Virus record (IMG/VR): IMGVR_UViG_3300037502_000933
Location: 1-20,182 of that record
Direction: 5' to 3' (one strand)
Origin: a virus
DNA: 20,182 nucleotides
Shown here: one piece after another, positions 1 to 19,145 of the stretch
Position numbering within the stretch: the stretch's first letter is position 1
Layout: every line of letters starts with the position of its first letter
Notes under the pieces: model-generated
Seen by the model: only the letters and a program-made list of their open reading frames with translations
What the model was told of the DNA's origin: nothing
The model's database searches: none
Translations under genes and position numbers: made by a program

Positions 1-891
1 ATCAGGCACATCAAAGCCGCGGGTCAAGATGTCCGTGGCGATTAGCCCGTGGATCTCCGTATCTGGCTTGGCAAAGTCCTCGATCGCGGCTTGCTTAAAC
101 TCATCCGCATCCTTGTAGCTGATCGATACAAAGTTATATCCCCGCTCGGCAAACCTCTGCACCAGGTCGGCTCCGTGGGCTACGCCGGCGCAGAATACGA
201 TTGTCTTGCGTGGCTTGCCAAAGACCTCATGGGTTTTCTTTTCCCACTCATCAACAATATCGCCGGTAATCTTCATGCCACGCTCGGTCACCACATCGGG
301 AGACCATTCGCCAGCAACCTTCTTGGCGCCTTTCATATCGATCTCTTTAGCGATGAAAACCTTGAGCGGGGTCAGCCACTTGTTATCCACCAGCCATTCC
401 GTTGTGGCGCCGTTGACCACATTTGTATAGACCTCGCCTAGGCCCTTGGTAAACGGGGTCGCTGTAAGACCGATCACCTTGACCTGGGGATTAGTTTTAA
501 TAAAGTCGATCGTCTGCTTCCTGGCGATATGGCACTCATCCACGATCACCAAGTCCACATCTGGGAACCCGCTGCGGCGCTCTAGAGTTTGAGCTGAGCA
601 GACTTGCAGGCGCTCGCCCTTGTCAAATTTCCAATGGCCAGCCTGGAACACGCCATGATCGAGCTTATACTTTGTAAGCCTGTTGCTAGTTTGATCTACC
701 AGGACTAAACGATCTAAAACGATCGCGGCCCTGTTGTATTTCTCTGAGGTAGCTTTCATTAAATAGATCGCAACCTCTGTCTTACCGAACCCTGTCGGAG
801 CATAGAGCAGCTGCGCTCTGTGTCCGTTTTTGAATCCATCCCTTAGCTTTTCAATCACCTTCATCTGATGGTCTCTCAGATGTAATTCCAT
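1..891 (-). CDS. SF2 DEAD/DEAH-type DNA helicase, C-terminal part beyond window
   Basis: This is a superfamily 2 ATP-dependent helicase, probably acting on branched or double-stranded DNA in phage replication or recombination (UvsW/RecG-like role inferred). The frame is open from an ATG at 891 to the window edge, giving 297 residues without a stop. Visible motifs are Walker A APTGFGKT (residues 31-38), Walker B DECH (118-121), motif III-like TATP (143-146) and a motif V segment ATDILTRGFDVPD at the window edge, so both RecA-like lobes are started but motif VI is outside. The start is supported by GAGGAG seven bases upstream. The preceding 63-residue gene stops three bases earlier, so translation is probably coupled. 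It belongs with the ParB-like and winged-helix genes in the left operon. The helicase class is secure; the exact subfamily is not. Confidence 0.9.
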   Translation of the reverse strand, partial: MELHLRDHQMKVIEKLRDGFKNGHRAQLLYAPTGFGKTEVAIYLMKATSEKYNRAAIVLDRLVLVDQTSNRLTKYKLDHGVFQAGHWKFDKGERLQVCSAQTLERRSGFPDVDLVIVDECHIARKQTIDFIKTNPQVKVIGLTATPFTKGLGEVYTNVVNGATTEWLVDNKWLTPLKVFIAKEIDMKGAKKVAGEWSPDVVTERGMKITGDIVDEWEKKTHEVFGKPRKTIVFCAGVAHGADLVQRFAERGYNFVSISYKDADEFKQAAIEDFAKPDTEIHGLIATDILTRGFDVPD

Positions 892-894
892 AGA

Positions 895-1086
895 CTAACT
901 CCTCTGTTTTTGATGTTCTTTATCAATGGCATCACGCATCAGCTGTGCGTTTACTCCGAGCTCGTGCGCCATAAACTTTGCTACATCGTAATTGCGTTTA
1001 TTGCACTCCCGCTCAATGGCAATTATCGCCATTTTGCAGCGGATTAAAAACTCAGAGTAATCCTGGGTTGTCTCTACCCGCTTCAT
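895..1086 (-). CDS. Small hypothetical phage protein, 63 aa
   Basis: I do not recognise this protein. It is a mostly helical, charged 63-residue product with one central hydrophobic helix (residues 18-25, containing MAIIAIE) and a basic C-terminus. Its ATG overlaps the stop of the upstream ParB-like gene in an ATGA arrangement (1083-1086), and its own stop lies three bases before the helicase ATG. It therefore sits inside a tightly coupled three-gene cassette and is very likely translated. It may be an accessory factor for the ParB-like protein or the helicase, but that is inferred from position only. Confidence 0.75.
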   Translation of the reverse strand: MKRVETTQDYSEFLIRCKMAIIAIERECNKRNYDVAKFMAHELGVNAQLMRDAIDKEHQKQRS

Positions 1087-1946
1087 TCAATCCCCGCTTT
1101 CTTTAACTTGTTTGTGAGAGCTTTAACTGTCCGCATAAGCTCTGAGTTTCGGTTCTGGTATGTATCGCGGCTCTCGCGTAAAGACTTATTCTCCATCTCC
1201 AGAATCTTGATCTGGTTGCGCAAGTCAGCGATCAGCTCCTCTGCGTCTATTTTCTCAATCTCGCTGGCATCCCACTGACCTATTGCAACCTTGTCCTTAA
1301 GAAGGGTGTTTTCTTCATGCAGCTGGGTGATGGTGTCGGTCAGCTCGGTAATTTTGTCGTCAAAGGCTGGATCTTCCTTCTTGACCTCTTTCTTTGCCTC
1401 CTCTTTCGGCTTTGATTCTTTCTTGGTTTTGGAGATCTTTTCGGTCTTCATCTCGGACTTATTGCCGTGTTTATTTACATAAGTCCTGGACTTCTTGGGT
1501 TCGATCTTGCCCTGCTCTTCCAGGGAATGACGCACCCGGCCGACGGTCATTTTCGATACGCCAACGTGTTTGGCGATCTGGGTATCCGACCACTTCTTCC
1601 ATTCCTCATCCATGAGCATCTTGGTGAGGATCTTGCGGATGTCTGCTGAGCTCCAGCCCAGGCCGCGCTTATTGCCGTTAGCGCCGTATGAGTAGAGCTC
1701 TGCATCCCTGACGGTGCCTGGCCTTACCTCGCACTCAATCTCCAGGCCGCCGATAGTCTTGGTGGCAAAGTAACGGTGAAACCCGTCTGCCAGCCAATGG
1801 TTTGAACCATCGTGGAAAACGACGATTGGAGGGAACTTATCGCCCTCCTGCATGTGCTCGGCATATCGAGCGACAACCTGCTGATCTAATTCTTCACGAG
1901 CTTGTGTGCCTCCATCCAACCGGATGACGGATAGTTGTAAGTTCAT
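1083..1946 (-). CDS. ParB/Srx-fold DNA-binding protein with HTH and coiled coil
   Basis: The N-terminal part (about residues 5-80) resembles a ParB/sulfiredoxin-like domain: an arginine in TQAR near residue 17, a PPIVVF strand, and the ParB-type box ADGFHR (53-58). A helix-turn-helix follows at about 119-141 (DTQIAKHVGVSKMTVGRVR). Next come a Lys/Glu-rich linker (150-195) and a long heptad-like coiled coil (196-285), so a dimer is expected. Phage proteins of this type act as DNA-binding regulators, segregation-like factors or ParB-type nucleases. Which applies here cannot be told, since no separate ParA is present in the window. The ATG at 1946 has a strong AGGAGG seven bases upstream. The gene lies 18 bp downstream of the winged-helix gene and overlaps the next gene by four bases. 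Confidence 0.85.
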   Translation of the reverse strand: MNLQLSVIRLDGGTQAREELDQQVVARYAEHMQEGDKFPPIVVFHDGSNHWLADGFHRYFATKTIGGLEIECEVRPGTVRDAELYSYGANGNKRGLGWSSADIRKILTKMLMDEEWKKWSDTQIAKHVGVSKMTVGRVRHSLEEQGKIEPKKSRTYVNKHGNKSEMKTEKISKTKKESKPKEEAKKEVKKEDPAFDDKITELTDTITQLHEENTLLKDKVAIGQWDASEIEKIDAEELIADLRNQIKILEMENKSLRESRDTYQNRNSELMRTVKALTNKLKKAGIE

Positions 1947-1964
1947 TTACTTCCTCCTAGCGTT

Positions 1965-2259: not shown

Positions 2260-2299
2260 CCTACCCAGCCCGGAGGGCTCACAACAGAGCCTACCCAGC
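2260..2299. repeat. Direct repeat CCTACCCAGC, two copies 30 bp apart
   Basis: CCTACCCAGC occurs at 2260-2269 and again at 2290-2299 (GCTGGGTAGG on the minus strand). Between the copies is a small hairpin, GGCTC (2276-2280) with GAGCC (2287-2291). On the minus strand this gives two identical single-stranded-looking motifs around a stem at the 3' end of the candidate RNA. The role is unknown: repeated RNA motif or protein site. Confidence 0.5.
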
Positions 2300-2493
2300 T
2301 AACCCATGAGGCAGCGATTCATTCACCAAGAGTCTTGTCCCACCGCTTTCCTCTTGGCTACACCAGTCCCTCGCTGACAGGCTGGTACCTAAACGGGGGG
2401 TGTAACCGCTAGGTGTCTTTCCTTCCGCGCCACCGATTCAAGTGCTTGCTAACGGGCGGAGTCCGGTCAGAATGAAACCCGGCCTAGAAAAGG

Positions 2494-2588: not shown

Positions 2589-2883
2589 AAAACGCCGGGC
2601 GTCACTCCGACAAGGTGGAGACTATCATAGTCCGAGGAAGTTCCGCAAGTGGTTTCCGGCTGATCGGTACAGTGGCCGGAGCACCGCTTTGCAAATCAGC
2701 ACCGATCTGCCTAGTGCCAGATCCCAGGTGGATAGCCCTCTCTGGCTGCAAGCGTTTATCGCCACCTCTTGCTGGGCGCATGAAAACAAACAACAGGGGA
2801 GGGGGGTGTACAACAACCGAACCCACGTTGCCGGGAATCCTGTTGTTACCCCTCCGCTTCCAATCCTACACCCGCCCGGGAAT

Positions 2884-2913
2884 AAAAAAACCCCCGGGTG
2901 TCTAGGCCGGGGG
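2884..2913 (-). terminator. Intrinsic terminator
   Basis: On the minus strand CCCCCGG (2913-2907) pairs with CCGGGGG (2897-2891) across a 9-base loop and is followed by seven T (2890-2884). It would end transcription arriving from the early operon and from the promoter at 2988-3017. Confidence 0.8.
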
Positions 2914-2981
2914 TCTCACCAAAGGTGACCATGAGTGCCACTGCTAGGAGGTTTCATGGTGACTGCGAGGAGGCACAGTCA
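2884..2981 (-). ncRNA. Candidate small RNA, about 98 nt, with two CCUCCU loops
   Basis: A sigma-70-like promoter (2988-3017) and a strong intrinsic terminator (2884-2913) bracket about 98 bases on the minus strand. Four hairpins can be drawn. (1) GACTGTG/CGCAGTC (2980-2974 with 2967-2961) has a loop that is exactly CCUCCU, with one G-U pair that exists only on this strand. (2) ACCATGA/TCATGGT (2960-2954 with 2934-2928) has a loop containing a second CCUCCU (2951-2946). (3) TCACC/GGTGA closes a TTT loop near 2928-2916. (4) is the terminator. CCUCCU is the anti-Shine-Dalgarno sequence, and loops of this kind are known in alphaproteobacterial sRNAs that bind mRNA ribosome sites. A role in translational control of host or phage mRNAs is inferred. 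It could instead be the 5' domain of the larger RNA. Confidence 0.55.
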
Positions 2982-2987
2982 AGGCGG

Positions 2988-3017
2988 GTTATACACCTCC
3001 CTGTATGACAGTGTCAA
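2988..3017 (-). promoter_or_regulatory. Sigma-70-like promoter inside the end of the 178-aa gene
   Basis: On the minus strand there is a perfect -35 TTGACA (3017-3012), an 18-bp spacer, and TATAAC (2993-2988), five of six matches to the -10 consensus. The start point would be near 2981. It overlaps the last codons of the upstream gene and points into the noncoding RNA region, not into a gene. Confidence 0.65.
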
Positions 3018-9930: not shown

Positions 9931-9956
9931 ATTAGCTCCTAGCAGTAGACAGGCAA

Positions 9957-16300: not shown

Positions 16301-17670
16301 CGGTCAAACTCAGCCTGTAGTGCGTCTATCCTGGATTGAGCCTCAGCTGGGGCTTCTACTTTTGTAGGAGCTGCAACCGGCTCAACACCCTCAAGCTCTT
16401 CTTCTGCAAAGGCAGGAGTAACTGGCGCTTCAGCCTTTTCCTCCTCCGGCATGGTTGGTTCAACCCGTGGGGCTGCTGCTTTAGCGGCAGGCTTTGGAGC
16501 TTCTTCTGGAGCCTCTGCCGGAGCGGCTTTACCACCACGCAGCTCCTCATAGATACGCCGGCCACCAAAGGCAGCGGTCTCAGCGATACTGGTCGGGCCT
16601 TCGCCAACGGCTTCAGCTACCACCTCGCCAGGCTTACGAATTTCTCCATAGGTCGCTAGCTGGGCCGCGGCTTCACCACCAGCGCCACTAAGCACCTGGG
16701 CTGCCGGCTGGGCGATCGCTATGTTAATAGCCTCCCGGGCCTTTGGACTACCAACCAGGCGCTTGGGAACCAAGGCTTTGCTGGCTAGACCGGCCGTAGC
16801 GGCATCAGCGGCCCCAATAATGGCACCACGCTTCAAAGCGAAGTCGTAGGCTTCTTTAAAAAGCTTGGGGTCATCGAGGGCCGACATCACAGCGTTTGTA
16901 TCGTTGATGTCTACGCCGTTTTCGGCTAGGTACTCAAATACGCTATTGCCAAGCTCCGAGGTCAGACTTGTTCCACCCATCGCGGCAGCACCAGCAATTG
17001 GCTGGCGGGTAACTGCACCTATGGCCAGAGCAGGAGCCATCTGCGGCAAGCTTTCTGCTGCGAATCCAGCCATAGCCCCAAACGGGTCTGTGGCCAGCGC
17101 CTCAAAAGCTTCGCCAAAGGTTTTTGCTCCACCAATAGCTTGGGTCACCGGCCGACCAGGAATTGCACGGGCCTGGGCCTCACGCTTGGCTACAGACTCC
17201 AGCTCGTCCATCTGAGCCTGTTGCAATATGTTGATTGCGTTTTCTTGTTCCTCTGGGCTTAGAGGAATGAACTCACCAGTCATGGGATCTGTGCGGCCAG
17301 CCTCGCCACGACGGATCTTCTCAATTTCTTTTTGACGAGATACTGCCGACATCGAGGGCAGCACGTTCATACCACGCAATACACCGCGCTTGATGTCCCG
17401 ACCAACCCGCTCGCCTAGTGAAGTGCCAGCCTCGTACTCTCTAGTCTTCTGTCGTAGCGCTGCTGCTTCGGGCGTATCCGCTACCGGAGTTAGCATTTCC
17501 TCTGGAGATAGCACCGGTTCGCTAGGAGCTCCCTTAGCAAATCCAATCCGCTCAGCAAAAACATCAAATGAAAGATCGGAATAAAACTTTTGATGAAGTC
17601 CTTTTGCTAACTGTTCATCCGATAGATCGCTGTACTGCGGGTACTTTTGCCGAATCTGCTGGATGTTCAT
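10396..17670 (-). CDS. Giant virion (ejection-type) protein with metalloprotease motif, 2424 aa
   Basis: This is a multi-domain phage protein of the size of podovirus internal/ejection or polyvalent proteins. Residues 1-45 form a short domain (IRQKYPQYSDLSDEQLAKGL) that I associate with large phage virion proteins. About 165-330 is Ala/Gly-rich and partly hydrophobic. About 370-440 is a Pro/Ala/Glu linker, and about 520-1080 is highly charged and helical. AHEMGHLHE holds the zinc signature H1350-E1351-x2-H1354. The C-terminal part (about 1900-2424), with a hydrophobic stretch near 2098-2120, resembles large polyvalent protein domain LPD38. It is probably packaged and injected with DNA; the protease may process virion or host proteins (inferred). 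The ATG at 17670 follows the upstream stop after two bases. Two A+T-rich islands suggest module exchange. Confidence 0.85.
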   Translation of the reverse strand: MNIQQIRQKYPQYSDLSDEQLAKGLHQKFYSDLSFDVFAERIGFAKGAPSEPVLSPEEMLTPVADTPEAAALRQKTREYEAGTSLGERVGRDIKRGVLRGMNVLPSMSAVSRQKEIEKIRRGEAGRTDPMTGEFIPLSPEEQENAINILQQAQMDELESVAKREAQARAIPGRPVTQAIGGAKTFGEAFEALATDPFGAMAGFAAESLPQMAPALAIGAVTRQPIAGAAAMGGTSLTSELGNSVFEYLAENGVDINDTNAVMSALDDPKLFKEAYDFALKRGAIIGAADAATAGLASKALVPKRLVGSPKAREAINIAIAQPAAQVLSGAGGEAAAQLATYGEIRKPGEVVAEAVGEGPTSIAETAAFGGRRIYEELRGGKAAPAEAPEEAPKPAAKAAAPRVEPTMPEEEKAEAPVTPAFAEEELEGVEPVAAPTKVEAPAEAQSRIDALQAEFDRIEAKRQDPLIAPDSPEMQEFDARQSEIRQEIRNLQGAAPKAAPTVAPVTEDLYNRLLKATPAELKKIDIPKAEAPDLLERFTIDDIKNPALEKKLTKIVNSLTPEEYASIRGLAEEPTEQAETEVPEWMKEQVPMKAPPPVEQIMESWGVGKAPAEKFLQAAQKKFDVYTRWKSGENVGDALGKAMEEFNNAYSRISKISRLNKQRAEAAKKPTKEEQAAINRERQAAKRQAAEVEEMKLPVEQQPYMSVSNGLRTIEIDNLNKEYGEVQRESWKKVDEAPADQRNEVYKQYQDRLEDIASRIGEARKRMEALPRPAGGWPKKPPTVPVKVSKVPAKKAVKEEHVEDGESEPITKPVIQEAVSKGARGEKIDYSAMRKEVERQVDEAIAKSPYKDDDEWNATAKSRRDFVTFSIPNDGTFKIKNNKERLAEFKKRLTAAVKPKEGRGPQFAISPASVETTLRDLVDSNDIQSAIEFAALKGVKISESKLDLKQKLKVKEYIEDPDAFEAKVAREAAMTEEQRQRMREAEEKRRIETRDRLVKEQEAKEAATLEEDVAMVMTGSDRDFAAMVKEIDKRQAEKILDKIDELEVDVNEKRIEDLKKKAGTFVDPRVRQFTRKLDSASDTYEANKQLFKKMPTAKGPVAIHTLIEDQVDAGAEIVTSPGGERKFGLPGDYSSEKQLGQFGMDYAGYLLSQKRKAPRAEAKTTEEQKANAQMVADEIGGEVVYQEGDYALIRGYSMMTGDPVYVPAIKTQRARVDIERFTGKQVPDDVKKEMIEFKQKAEADAASKHKSNPFITFDRGLATSNDIDEKLAGVIRGWKDLLKINVPVYVSTIEDAKRNRNNFTGPHRRIGSGTLDEKERGSMRRMADDSYYILFEKSTSPTFMLEVIAHEMGHLHERLVYERATPEQKAALKKAHESWLSRQEGKMAKDLVAALRGRAVGKRAKVPADQTVFQMSSYWKSFGEWYADQVSRWAVTNRAPVNIVEKFFKRLANQLRTFYQKLKNANYLPDRTFVDYLDQVNQEPVNAAPSNQVIDDTPEFMKDVDNEDTRRLDDLLEKHNRPEAPLHPSNSVKDRMLGTYRGTKKIGQRVIDDPLGVGKGVISGADRAITYARNKNIWYGTGVDQADFSRYNGQLRDAQGKAVASIAVTNAIHAGHVGTQVMVQGGLEYNDKTKQFMAVKRSKSMANVLKEKAKLVDQLGAQRAANVIQAYFEAKRSRSIIDEYLAREQRYQDALDSGENPEEAAEALANIERAASKVNMDDEQIDEFIALEKEYPELRAMMDNWTAVNQNQLDMSYFAGNLSKARYEQLKAIKDYVPWYRIMDDQKDPHDFPTGGTTRTMTNVAREKRFKAGEVGLDIDDIVDNMIHNVMWMTKNTMRNYAANRIADEYGIRNEKGKLKVFPKEGADSDGVKFNILRNGRRIVIGVADPLIAEAAIGMENVEIPMNKILSIMANGLRRSITLSGAFQLKQLFMDAPTAAWVSGVKNPFAVWANTFIAFGKVLVDKDPIAQKLRQAGIGGFMSTARTPEQELALEIGLLNKSMYAKVLRVLDHIGDASDYAQRVSIYKQVLKETGDEAQALLQANNVIDFLKRGSGQTAQFLSRTVSFMNAYAVSIDVLATTLAGGGLKGMARQKAITRMAITGGLLSFTTLLYCFAVGDDEEYEKLDDQTKLRNFIIPGSKKYFGETVALPMHTSASFFFKAIPELLYNKITREGAETEMDSRRFRKALKEAFMDSMLGPNVVPTGAKPFIEIGLNKNFWTGSEVIPKGMQDLEAAEQYNAATSELGKVVSALTSIPGTDGKRLLAPIEADHLMRSLFGSAAAMAMWGTNMLAGDRAESRVKDLPVIGAFVLPPVPRGREDLFYDLKEATDQKWKTFNSLLDREKYDEADKYLEKHEGLIGLHDYTSQMDSALKEINKEIRRIGTTSAKDMSPKERREQMNEFGNLKGEILEGIESLRRQAFD

Positions 17671-17672
17671 AT

Positions 17673-19145
17673 TTATCTGCGTATCCCTAATGGATCAGAC
17701 TGAGACCCTTGTTGAGACGAACCACCTGCTGTCGGAGCAGGAGCTGGTCGGCCAAGTAATGCAGCCTCTTCATCCCTGTAAAGCTGTTGTCTATATTGGT
17801 CAGCCAAAGTTGTTGGATTTCCAGCAGCCGCATTCTTTTGATCTTGTTGCTTACGCTTCATAAGTTCACGAGATTCTGGACTTGTATATATCTTAAGTCG
17901 AGCGTCTACATTATCACGAGCCTTATTAACAGTCTCAACATCAGTTGCTTGACCGTAGATATTAGCTCGTTGAAATGCTGCACCGCGCTCACGAACATAT
18001 TTAATATAACCCTCTTCCAAAATTATGTCGTCAGGTCTGTTATCGCCTTGAGCTTTTCTGGATCGTAAGTAAGTTTGAGCATAACGGTCGCCCTCAGCAC
18101 TGCGGCCAGCAAGTGAGGTTTGTTTAAGAGCTTCTTTGTAGCCAGTTTCACTGATGTCTTTGAGCAAACCTTGCTCTTTGGTAATTGCATCAAGCTCTTC
18201 GGTGCGGGCCTTCTCAATATTGCCCATCTTGGCGTCATAGGCAGACTTGGTACGAAGATCGTTGATCTCAGCAATCCTACGGTCAATGTCGGTCATGCCG
18301 GTGCGACGCTCTTTCTCATATCGAGCCATGCTAGGCCCAAGGCGATATGGATCAAGATTCAATATACGGTTAGCGATTGTGTCGGATTCCTCAAACCGCC
18401 GTCTTTCATCCTGGGCTGCTTTCAGTCTTTCAGCTTGCACATCAGGAGCCTCACCGATTCCGGCTTCACGCTTGCGCTCTTCAATAGACTTCACAGCCTG
18501 GAGACGGCGGATTAACTCCGCCAATTGACGCTGCGGGTCAATTTCTTCATCGGGTTTCTTTACCTCTTCTCCTAGCTCAAAAAAGCCTGGGCTGGTCTCG
18601 ACAAACGATCCCTCTTTCCCAGCAAAGGCAACGATCCCACCGCCAGCATAATCAGCACGGCGGATGTTGTCTGCGGGTAGGCCAGCAATTCCAGGACGGC
18701 GCTGCTTCATAGCTTTTAGCATCATCAGCTTTTTGATCATCTCGGGGTTCATGGCCATGCCACCACCCTGATAGTCCCGGGGGACTACGATGTCATCAAT
18801 GAAGCCACCACCTGCTAACTGGGCTGGCTCAGAGGTTGTTGTGTTGGGTGCGGCCATAGGCATAGCGGCCTGAATGCCCTGCTGCTGCTGAGCGGCTTGA
18901 CGCTGCCGGCTACCCTGAAGCGCCATGAGTCCGGTGGCCTGCTCAATTTGCTGTTTAATCGTGGGCGCCCCTTCCATCTCTTGGGCCTGCTCAGCAGCTG
19001 CGCCTTCTTGCATCTTCTTGCGGCGGTTTAGTTCGCCTAGAGCAAGGAACGGAGGAACCTGTGGATTAGCCCCGTTGGCGTATTGCATCAGCGCCTGCAT
19101 CGGCACATCTTTGAGGCGTTCTTGAAGCTGGACTAGGTTAAGCAT
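17673..19145 (-). CDS. Virion-associated protein with Gly-rich motifs, 490 aa
   Basis: The N-terminus (LVQLQERLKDVPMQALMQYANG, then PPFLALGELNRRKKM) is a pattern I associate with structural proteins of lytic podovirus-like phages. A Gln/Ala-rich part follows, then three Gly-triplet motifs: LAGGGFIDDIV, YQGGGMAM and YAGGGIVAFAG (about 110-175). The second half is charged and coiled-coil rich. The exact role is unknown, but its place between another structural protein and the giant protein suggests an internal or head-tail component. The ATG at 19145 has AAGGA eight bases upstream. The DNA for about 17790-18130 is A+T-richer than the rest. Confidence 0.75.
   Translation of the reverse strand: MLNLVQLQERLKDVPMQALMQYANGANPQVPPFLALGELNRRKKMQEGAAAEQAQEMEGAPTIKQQIEQATGLMALQGSRQRQAAQQQQGIQAAMPMAAPNTTTSEPAQLAGGGFIDDIVVPRDYQGGGMAMNPEMIKKLMMLKAMKQRRPGIAGLPADNIRRADYAGGGIVAFAGKEGSFVETSPGFFELGEEVKKPDEEIDPQRQLAELIRRLQAVKSIEERKREAGIGEAPDVQAERLKAAQDERRRFEESDTIANRILNLDPYRLGPSMARYEKERRTGMTDIDRRIAEINDLRTKSAYDAKMGNIEKARTEELDAITKEQGLLKDISETGYKEALKQTSLAGRSAEGDRYAQTYLRSRKAQGDNRPDDIILEEGYIKYVRERGAAFQRANIYGQATDVETVNKARDNVDARLKIYTSPESRELMKRKQQDQKNAAAGNPTTLADQYRQQLYRDEEAALLGRPAPAPTAGGSSQQGSQSDPLGIRR

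Follow-up and report, generated by a model that had tools for sequence, protein, structure and literature searches.

In a linear virus record of 20,182 bases (label G000; hereafter "the window"), a promoter and a terminator flank a short stretch that shows CCUCCU, the core of the anti-Shine–Dalgarno (anti-SD) sequence, twice. Does this locus encode a small RNA (sRNA) under selection, and would such an RNA act on ribosome-binding sites (RBSs) in general or on particular genes of the phage itself? An earlier note had proposed a phage sRNA with two anti-SD loops that could damp host translation or time phage gene expression. Here we compare the window with related IMG/VR phage loci (L-numbered below).

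Predicted transcription unit and fold

The unit comprises the following features:

2884–2981, minus strand: predicted sRNA of ~98 nt, 3 hairpins plus terminator, identified by fold z score and by a match to covariance model R1
3012–3017, minus strand: −35 hexamer TTGACA, 6/6 match, within the 3′ end of a 178-aa gene
2988–2993, minus strand: −10 hexamer TATAAC, 5/6 match, 18-nt spacer, overlapping the stop codon of the 178-aa gene
2961–2980, minus strand: hairpin 1, GACUGUG-CCUCCU-CGCAGUC, 7-bp stem with one U·G pair, loop CCUCCU at 2973–2968
2928–2960, minus strand: hairpin 2, ACCAUGA-AA-CC-UCCUAGCAGU-GG-CAC-UCAUGGU, carrying the seed CUCCUAGCAGU (2950–2940)
2917–2927, minus strand: hairpin 3, CACC-UUU-GGUG, small, with loop UCCU in several relatives
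2884–2913, minus strand: intrinsic terminator CCCCCGG..CCGGGGG-U7, which also ends the upstream operon; 100% of cells paired in 14 homologues

Along the minus strand, the end of the 178-aa gene (stop at 2989) and TTGACA-18-TATAAC are followed by the predicted sRNA, whose sequence from 2981 to 2884 is UGACUGUGCCUCCUCGCAGUCACCAUGAAACCUCCUAGCAGUGGCACUCAUGGUCACCUUUGGUGAGACCCCCGGCCUAGACACCCGGGGGUUUUUUU. The promoter agrees with the consensus at 11 of 12 positions, and at least 11 matches are expected with a probability of 0.00045 per 70-nt background window (~0.05% of random 70-nt windows of these phages); a simple scan that requires T at the last −10 position misses it. The −10 hexamer ends 6 nt upstream of position 2981, which therefore fits as the 5′ end. 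Most relatives have an equivalent −35 element (TTGACA or TTGACG). The minimum free energy of the RNA is −39.5 kcal/mol (z = −3.3), and none of 200 shuffled sequences was equally stable. The bracketing of about 98 nt by a promoter and a strong terminator, as first noticed, thus holds on the minus strand; promoter, terminator and fold define the unit computationally, and its transcription is predicted from them.

Hairpin 1 is as the earlier note described it, with an exact CCUCCU loop on a 7-bp stem with one G–U pair (2980–2961), and the loop has an unpaired probability of 1.0. The claim of a second CCUCCU loop stands only in part: hairpin 2 holds CCUCCUAGCAGUGG in its loop region, but this CCUCCU lies partly within a 2-bp inner helix, so that the accessible loop is UCCUAGCAGU.

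The RNA starts where the 178-aa gene has its stop codon, and its terminator would end the upstream operon, as expected if the locus were mainly the 3′ end of the operon mRNA (a 3′UTR-derived RNA or a plain terminator) with incidental loops. This is very unlikely, given that the sRNA has its own promoter in the window and in most relatives, that its stems covary around a fixed loop, and that the loop coevolves with its targets (described below).

The strand can be read from the conserved stems, in which 13 G–U cells but only 2 A–C cells are found when the alignment is read as minus-strand RNA. Because these G–U pairs hold only in the minus-strand copy, the minus strand is the strand under selection, and the counts, in line with the promoter and terminator, support a minus-strand transcript. 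The reverse complement shows GGA in its loops, which would suit a plus-strand RNA that titrates CsrA/RsmA through loops reading AGGAGG. RNAs of the CsrB/RsmY type carry GGA in the loops of the transcribed strand; here promoter, terminator and G–U/A–C counts all mark the minus strand as the transcribed one, and the plus strand has no terminator. We rejected this reading, which is extremely improbable.

A conserved family with covarying stems and an invariant loop

Exonuclease homology gave 80 related IMG/VR loci, and 2 more sets were added later. Several dozen distinct phage loci of IMG/VR have the same RNA at the equivalent place, where promoter, hairpins and terminator follow the exonuclease operon on the same strand. 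Model R1, built from 5 other phages with the window left out, matches the window at 2883–2981 (minus strand) with 42 bits (E = 1.7e-6). In an alignment of 14 homologues, (i) 96.5% of cells pair, and pairing falls to 56% or less when the partners are slid by one column; (ii) double compensatory changes occur in 17 of 20 base pairs, hairpin 1 having them at all 6 stem pairs of the model and hairpin 2 at all 7 outer pairs; (iii) the covariation score is 0.535, compared with 0.186 for shuffled alignments, and none of 500 shuffles reaches it; and (iv) the loop CUCCUAGC is invariant at every letter in the members carrying it, while its flanking stems are rewritten. The conserved hairpin 2 loop reads CUCCUAGCRG. 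The pattern that the earlier note held against an sRNA, loops not conserved while stems are, is thus the opposite of what these homologues show. The hairpin 1 loop, by contrast, is CCCACA, UCCCCC or CCCUC rather than CCUCCU in many relatives, and stays C-rich.

Loci L082–L112 were fetched by a pattern containing CTCCTAGC, and loop conservation there is by construction; the argument from the loop therefore rests on loci fetched by exonuclease homology alone. Among 49 distinct terminators from those loci plus the window, 7 have at least 2 CTCCT in the 90 nt upstream (expected 0.2; maximum 3 in 2000 shuffles), and all 7 are the sRNA locus.

An Rfam scan of the window found no family at its cut-off, blastn against annotated phages gave no match, and a close-relative scan found no relatives of the 178-aa neighbour gene in IMG/VR. 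No cultured phage is close (exonuclease identity 40% or less), Pelagibacter phage Baldr and Planktothrix phage Pag-Yong1 being too distant for use. The sRNA constitutes a new, widespread phage RNA family that Rfam does not contain. The window, from an uncultured aquatic phage, most likely encodes a ~98-letter RNA whose loop fits the RBSs of its own exonuclease and ParB-like genes exactly. A host-derived sRNA was set aside: CTCCTAGCRG plus a terminator, searched in 257 Gb of bacterial and archaeal genomes, gave 3 chance-like matches and no convincing host copies. With the looser pattern CTCCTNGGC, most matches were chance ones in coding sequence or tRNA ends; it also brought in one further group with CUCCU (L120, L122, L127 and others).

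L120, L122, L127, L130, L131, L134 and L140 form a group of phage contigs in which CUCUCCUUGGC is placed between hairpins ahead of a terminator and follows a gene ending ..GIKGLRIW; they may represent one more such family.

Complementarity to ribosome-binding sites of the phage

The genes around the sRNA encode an Erf-like annealing protein, a PD-(D/E)XK exonuclease, RusA, a ParB-like protein, a phage DNA helicase and a ferredoxin-like auxiliary protein. Two of them are predicted targets:

9936–9946, minus strand: predicted target 1, ACUGCUAGGAG, spanning −16 to −6 relative to the exonuclease start codon, perfectly complementary over 11 nt to the hairpin 2 loop
9055–9930, minus strand: target gene 1, PD-(D/E)XK / Cas4-RecB-like exonuclease (phrog_2139)
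1953–1961, minus strand: predicted target 2, GCUAGGAGG, spanning −15 to −7 relative to the start codon of the ParB-like gene, complementary over 9 nt
1083–1946, minus strand: target gene 2, ParB-like protein (phrog_1033)

As expected of a phage antisense RNA whose loop matches the RBS of a phage gene, complements of 11 nt at the exonuclease and 9 nt at ParB were found, and these are the only RBSs in the window with sRNA complements of at least 9 nt. With both partners opened, the net pairing energy is −11.2 kcal/mol for the exonuclease and −9.9 kcal/mol for ParB, compared with −5.2 and −6.9 kcal/mol for 2 ordinary AGGAG sites. By raw duplex energy alone the targets do not stand out (gene 2168 ranks first), whereas by contiguous complementarity they do; part of the pairing energy is generic, since any C-rich loop pairs with any SD. 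The loop complement GCTAGGAG is the extended SD of particular phage genes: of its 86 occurrences in the exonuclease-selected loci, 75 lie 3–12 nt before a start codon. Across phages, 86 sRNA-complementary 9-mers were counted at RBSs, whereas dinucleotide-shuffled sRNAs gave 26.3 ± 7.2 (maximum 46 of 200) and foreign sRNAs, swapped between phages, gave 44.8 ± 8.6 (maximum 70 of 200).

The DECH-motif codons of the helicase hold sRNA complements of 10 and 12 nt in the window (~530–540, minus strand) and at L013:19199, respectively; these arise from different sRNA parts in the 2 phages and are probably due to chance.

Coevolution of loop and targets

Were the loop nothing but an anti-SD, sRNAs would be interchangeable between phages at the RBSs, and they are not. 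The longest match to the exonuclease RBS averaged 8.27 nt for a phage's own sRNA and 6.59 nt for foreign sRNAs (permutation test, 22 phages, p = 5e-5), and the corresponding contiguous-match test for the ParB RBS gave p = 0.0023; the helicase RBS as a general target was not significant (p = 0.10). When duplex energy was used instead, the exonuclease again stood out (p = 0.00025) and ParB did not (p = 0.14, not significant). The result was replicated on new loci (16 phages, p = 0.0036) whose candidates were chosen only by a fixed promoter-plus-terminator pipeline; L205, L163 and L195, described below, are among them. The permutation tests use loci outside L082–L112, although some of the sRNAs in the tests were first noticed by the word TCCTAGC; the tests treat phages as independent, on fragmentary genomes with predicted start codons. 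At single-letter level, the nucleotide that follows CUCCUAGC changes together with its partner, A facing U in 21 of 25 cases and G facing C in 5 of 5 (21/4 versus 0/5, Fisher p = 0.0009; one self-match excluded).

Individual phages show the changes directly. In L205, the sRNA sequence CUCCUAGCAGUGG matches the exonuclease RBS CCACUGCUAGGAG at 13 of 13 nt, whereas the related L163/L165 and L066 carry UUGGCAGUGG or CCUGGCAGUGG in the sRNA and CCACUGCCAAcGGAG at the exonuclease RBS, so that the pair CUCCUAGCAGUGG/CCACUGCUAGGAG is replaced by UUGGCAGUGG/CCACUGCCAA; in L163, loop and target have both changed and a 10-nt match is retained. L195 pairs UUCCUAGCAGUU with AACUGCUAGGAA (12-nt match, UUCCU/AGGAA), and L047 pairs UCCUAGUGG with CCACUAGGA. 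The complement reaches 14 nt in L073, 13 nt in L059, 12 nt at the helicase of L035 and 18 nt at the gene immediately downstream in L057. In L151, L152, L154, L155 and L184, the match lies instead at a 74–75-aa ORF directly before the exonuclease. Clear complementarity is lacking at both the exonuclease and the ParB RBS in L008, L039, L067, L182 and L215. The complementarity between sRNA and RBSs and the coevolution of loop and target are thus established computationally, and intermolecular covariation of this kind is strong comparative evidence for the predicted RNA–RNA pairing.

Sites of 9–12 nt complementary to the sRNA were also found between the sRNA and the next RNA (L059:8882 and L069:16636), and the sRNA may also pair with a leader downstream of itself, to judge from these sites.

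A specific switch or a general anti-SD RNA

In the general form of the earlier proposal, the CCUCCU loops would cover the SDs on many mRNAs of the host (and of the phage) and so damp translation in the host. The 2 accessible CCUCCU loops in the window, the C-rich loops of nearly all members and a weak same-strand resemblance to RF02837, RF02278 and RF02344 agree with it. A general anti-SD RNA would need only the core. Here, the conserved element is the hairpin 2 loop plus 3–6 nt beyond the core, and this extension covaries with the phage's own targets: the sRNA of a phage fits its own exonuclease and ParB RBSs better than foreign sRNAs do, so the loop is more than an anti-SD. Moreover, the CCUCCU of hairpin 1 is not kept, and L195, L163, L073, L059 and L046, which are without any CUCCU, keep their target matches. 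General host damping would leave the loop–target covariation unexplained, and we regard it as unlikely.

A combination of both roles is less improbable, though still doubtful: the hairpin 2 seed would be specific for phage genes, and the C-rich loop of hairpin 1 would bind host or other phage mRNAs non-specifically. Most members keep the structure of hairpin 1 together with a C-rich loop, and in L008 the hairpin 1 loop has a 9-nt complement before a possible start (18030), but the sequence of this loop drifts.

We therefore consider the locus to be, with good probability, a phage trans-acting antisense sRNA that blocks the translation of recombination and replication genes of the same phage; it would seem to be a switch dedicated to turning these genes off and not a general brake on host protein synthesis. 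What stands of the first small-RNA reading is its own promoter and terminator, the varying stems and the pairing of loops with SD regions, not the idea of 2 equivalent general anti-SD loops. The alternative that the earlier note had offered, timing of phage gene expression, fits as well. The loop extension matches and covaries with the phage's own RBSs at the exonuclease and ParB, the 75-aa ORF or the helicase.

In the proposed mechanism, the sigma70-type promoter would direct a ~98-nt transcript ending at the intrinsic terminator, and its hairpin 2 loop (CUCCUAGCRG) would pair over the extended SD of the phage's own mRNAs. In the window these would be the mRNAs of the exonuclease, with 11 bp, and of the ParB-like gene, with 9 bp; in relatives they would also include those of the 75-aa ORF that precedes the exonuclease, of the helicase and of a small number of further genes. 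With the SD hidden by pairing, loading of the 30S subunit should stop, as has been described for c4 (PMC12197685) and NfeR1 (PMC10746234). As the sRNA accumulates, recombination and replication proteins would be repressed, and the hairpin 1 loop, being C-rich, probably contributes some weak, general pairing with SDs. Because the targets are recombination and replication genes, the simplest role would be to cap or end their synthesis. Repression, its timing and any protein partner of the sRNA we infer.

Comparison with known RNAs

Few phage antisense RNAs are known, and those reviewed are mostly from laboratory temperate phages and have one phage target each (PMC12197685). The c4 RNA of P1/P7 is likewise phage-encoded, has its complementary sequences in loops and blocks translation by pairing around the RBS of a phage gene; its target is the antirepressor gene ant (immunity), whereas the sRNA described here has several predicted recombination and replication targets per phage, and the likeness that we propose is one of function (PMC12197685). 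The sar RNA of P22 (68–69 nt) blocks initiation of a phage gene, as proposed here, but has a single target (ant), is tied to lysogeny and is without a multi-target seed (PMC12197685).

The rhizobial alpha-r14/NfeR1 RNAs (RF02344) are alike in having 3 hairpins, unpaired anti-SD motifs, differing stems, a length of ~120 nt and occlusion of the RBSs of several mRNAs; by contrast, they are bacterial and repeat the ultraconserved CCUCCUCCC three times, whereas the seed here is CUCCUAGCRG and coevolves with its targets (PMC10746234). The RF02344 model scored 17.5 bits (E = 0.89) against the window, below the gathering cut-off of 58.8; CCUCCUCCC, expected unpaired in 3 hairpins, is absent from the window hairpins, 2 of which hold CCUCCU. 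The models of the Betaproteobacteria toxic sRNA (RF02278; 19.0 bits, cut-off 50) and anti-hemB (RF02837; 23.8 bits, cut-off 49.5) also stayed below their cut-offs; both share with our sRNA a CCUCC loop and a terminator on the same strand.

Plasmid copy-number antisense RNAs such as pMV158 RNAII resemble the sRNA in that they block translation of a replication gene and have a YUNR loop motif, which speeds antisense pairing, but they are cis-encoded with long complementarity, whereas the sRNA is encoded away from its targets and matches 9–18 nt (PMC4485353). The seed loop CUAG of the window fits YUNR, as do the changed forms CUGG, UUGG and UUAG. We tentatively suggest a plasmid-style copy-number or timing circuit, in which every replicated genome would make the sRNA from a constitutive promoter; its dose would rise with phage DNA, stop translation of recombination and replication proteins and so bring replication to a close with no protein repressor involved, the circuit having diversified across dozens of aquatic phages through paired loop and RBS changes; this is a possibility well short of even odds.

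These uncultured phages supply comparative evidence for a conserved sRNA with several targets, predicted to be the phage's own DNA-metabolism genes. The family offers natural matched and mismatched sRNA–target pairs for a reporter assay, and the approach is a way of finding RNAs of this kind in uncultivable environmental phages.

Neighbouring structured RNAs

A second, larger structured RNA lies between the sRNA and the ParB operon (window 2294–2461, minus strand; probably within ~2215–2880). About 20 distinct phage loci share its core, with nhmmer E values as low as 1e-50; double compensatory changes occur in 19 of 35 predicted pairs, and the minus-strand region has a fold z score of −5; no convincing Rfam match was found up to E = 10. 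In L025, L028, L031 and L234, the larger RNA is on the opposite strand relative to the exonuclease. In L005, an insert of ~1.6 kb (16460–18070), including a 313-aa minus-strand ORF, separates the sRNA from the larger RNA.

In a phage subgroup, the Betaproteobacteria-1 RNA (RF02932, 87–99 bits) was found just downstream of the sRNA, where the group of the window has the larger RNA. The matches are as follows:

L106, 798–914, plus strand: RF02932
L154, 15564–15680, plus strand: RF02932
L084, 224–340, plus strand: RF02932
L150, 17394–17513, plus strand: RF02932
L059, 8999–9123, plus strand: RF02932
L195, 16508–16630, plus strand: RF02932
L152, 19091–19211, plus strand: RF02932

RF02932 therefore occurs in phages.
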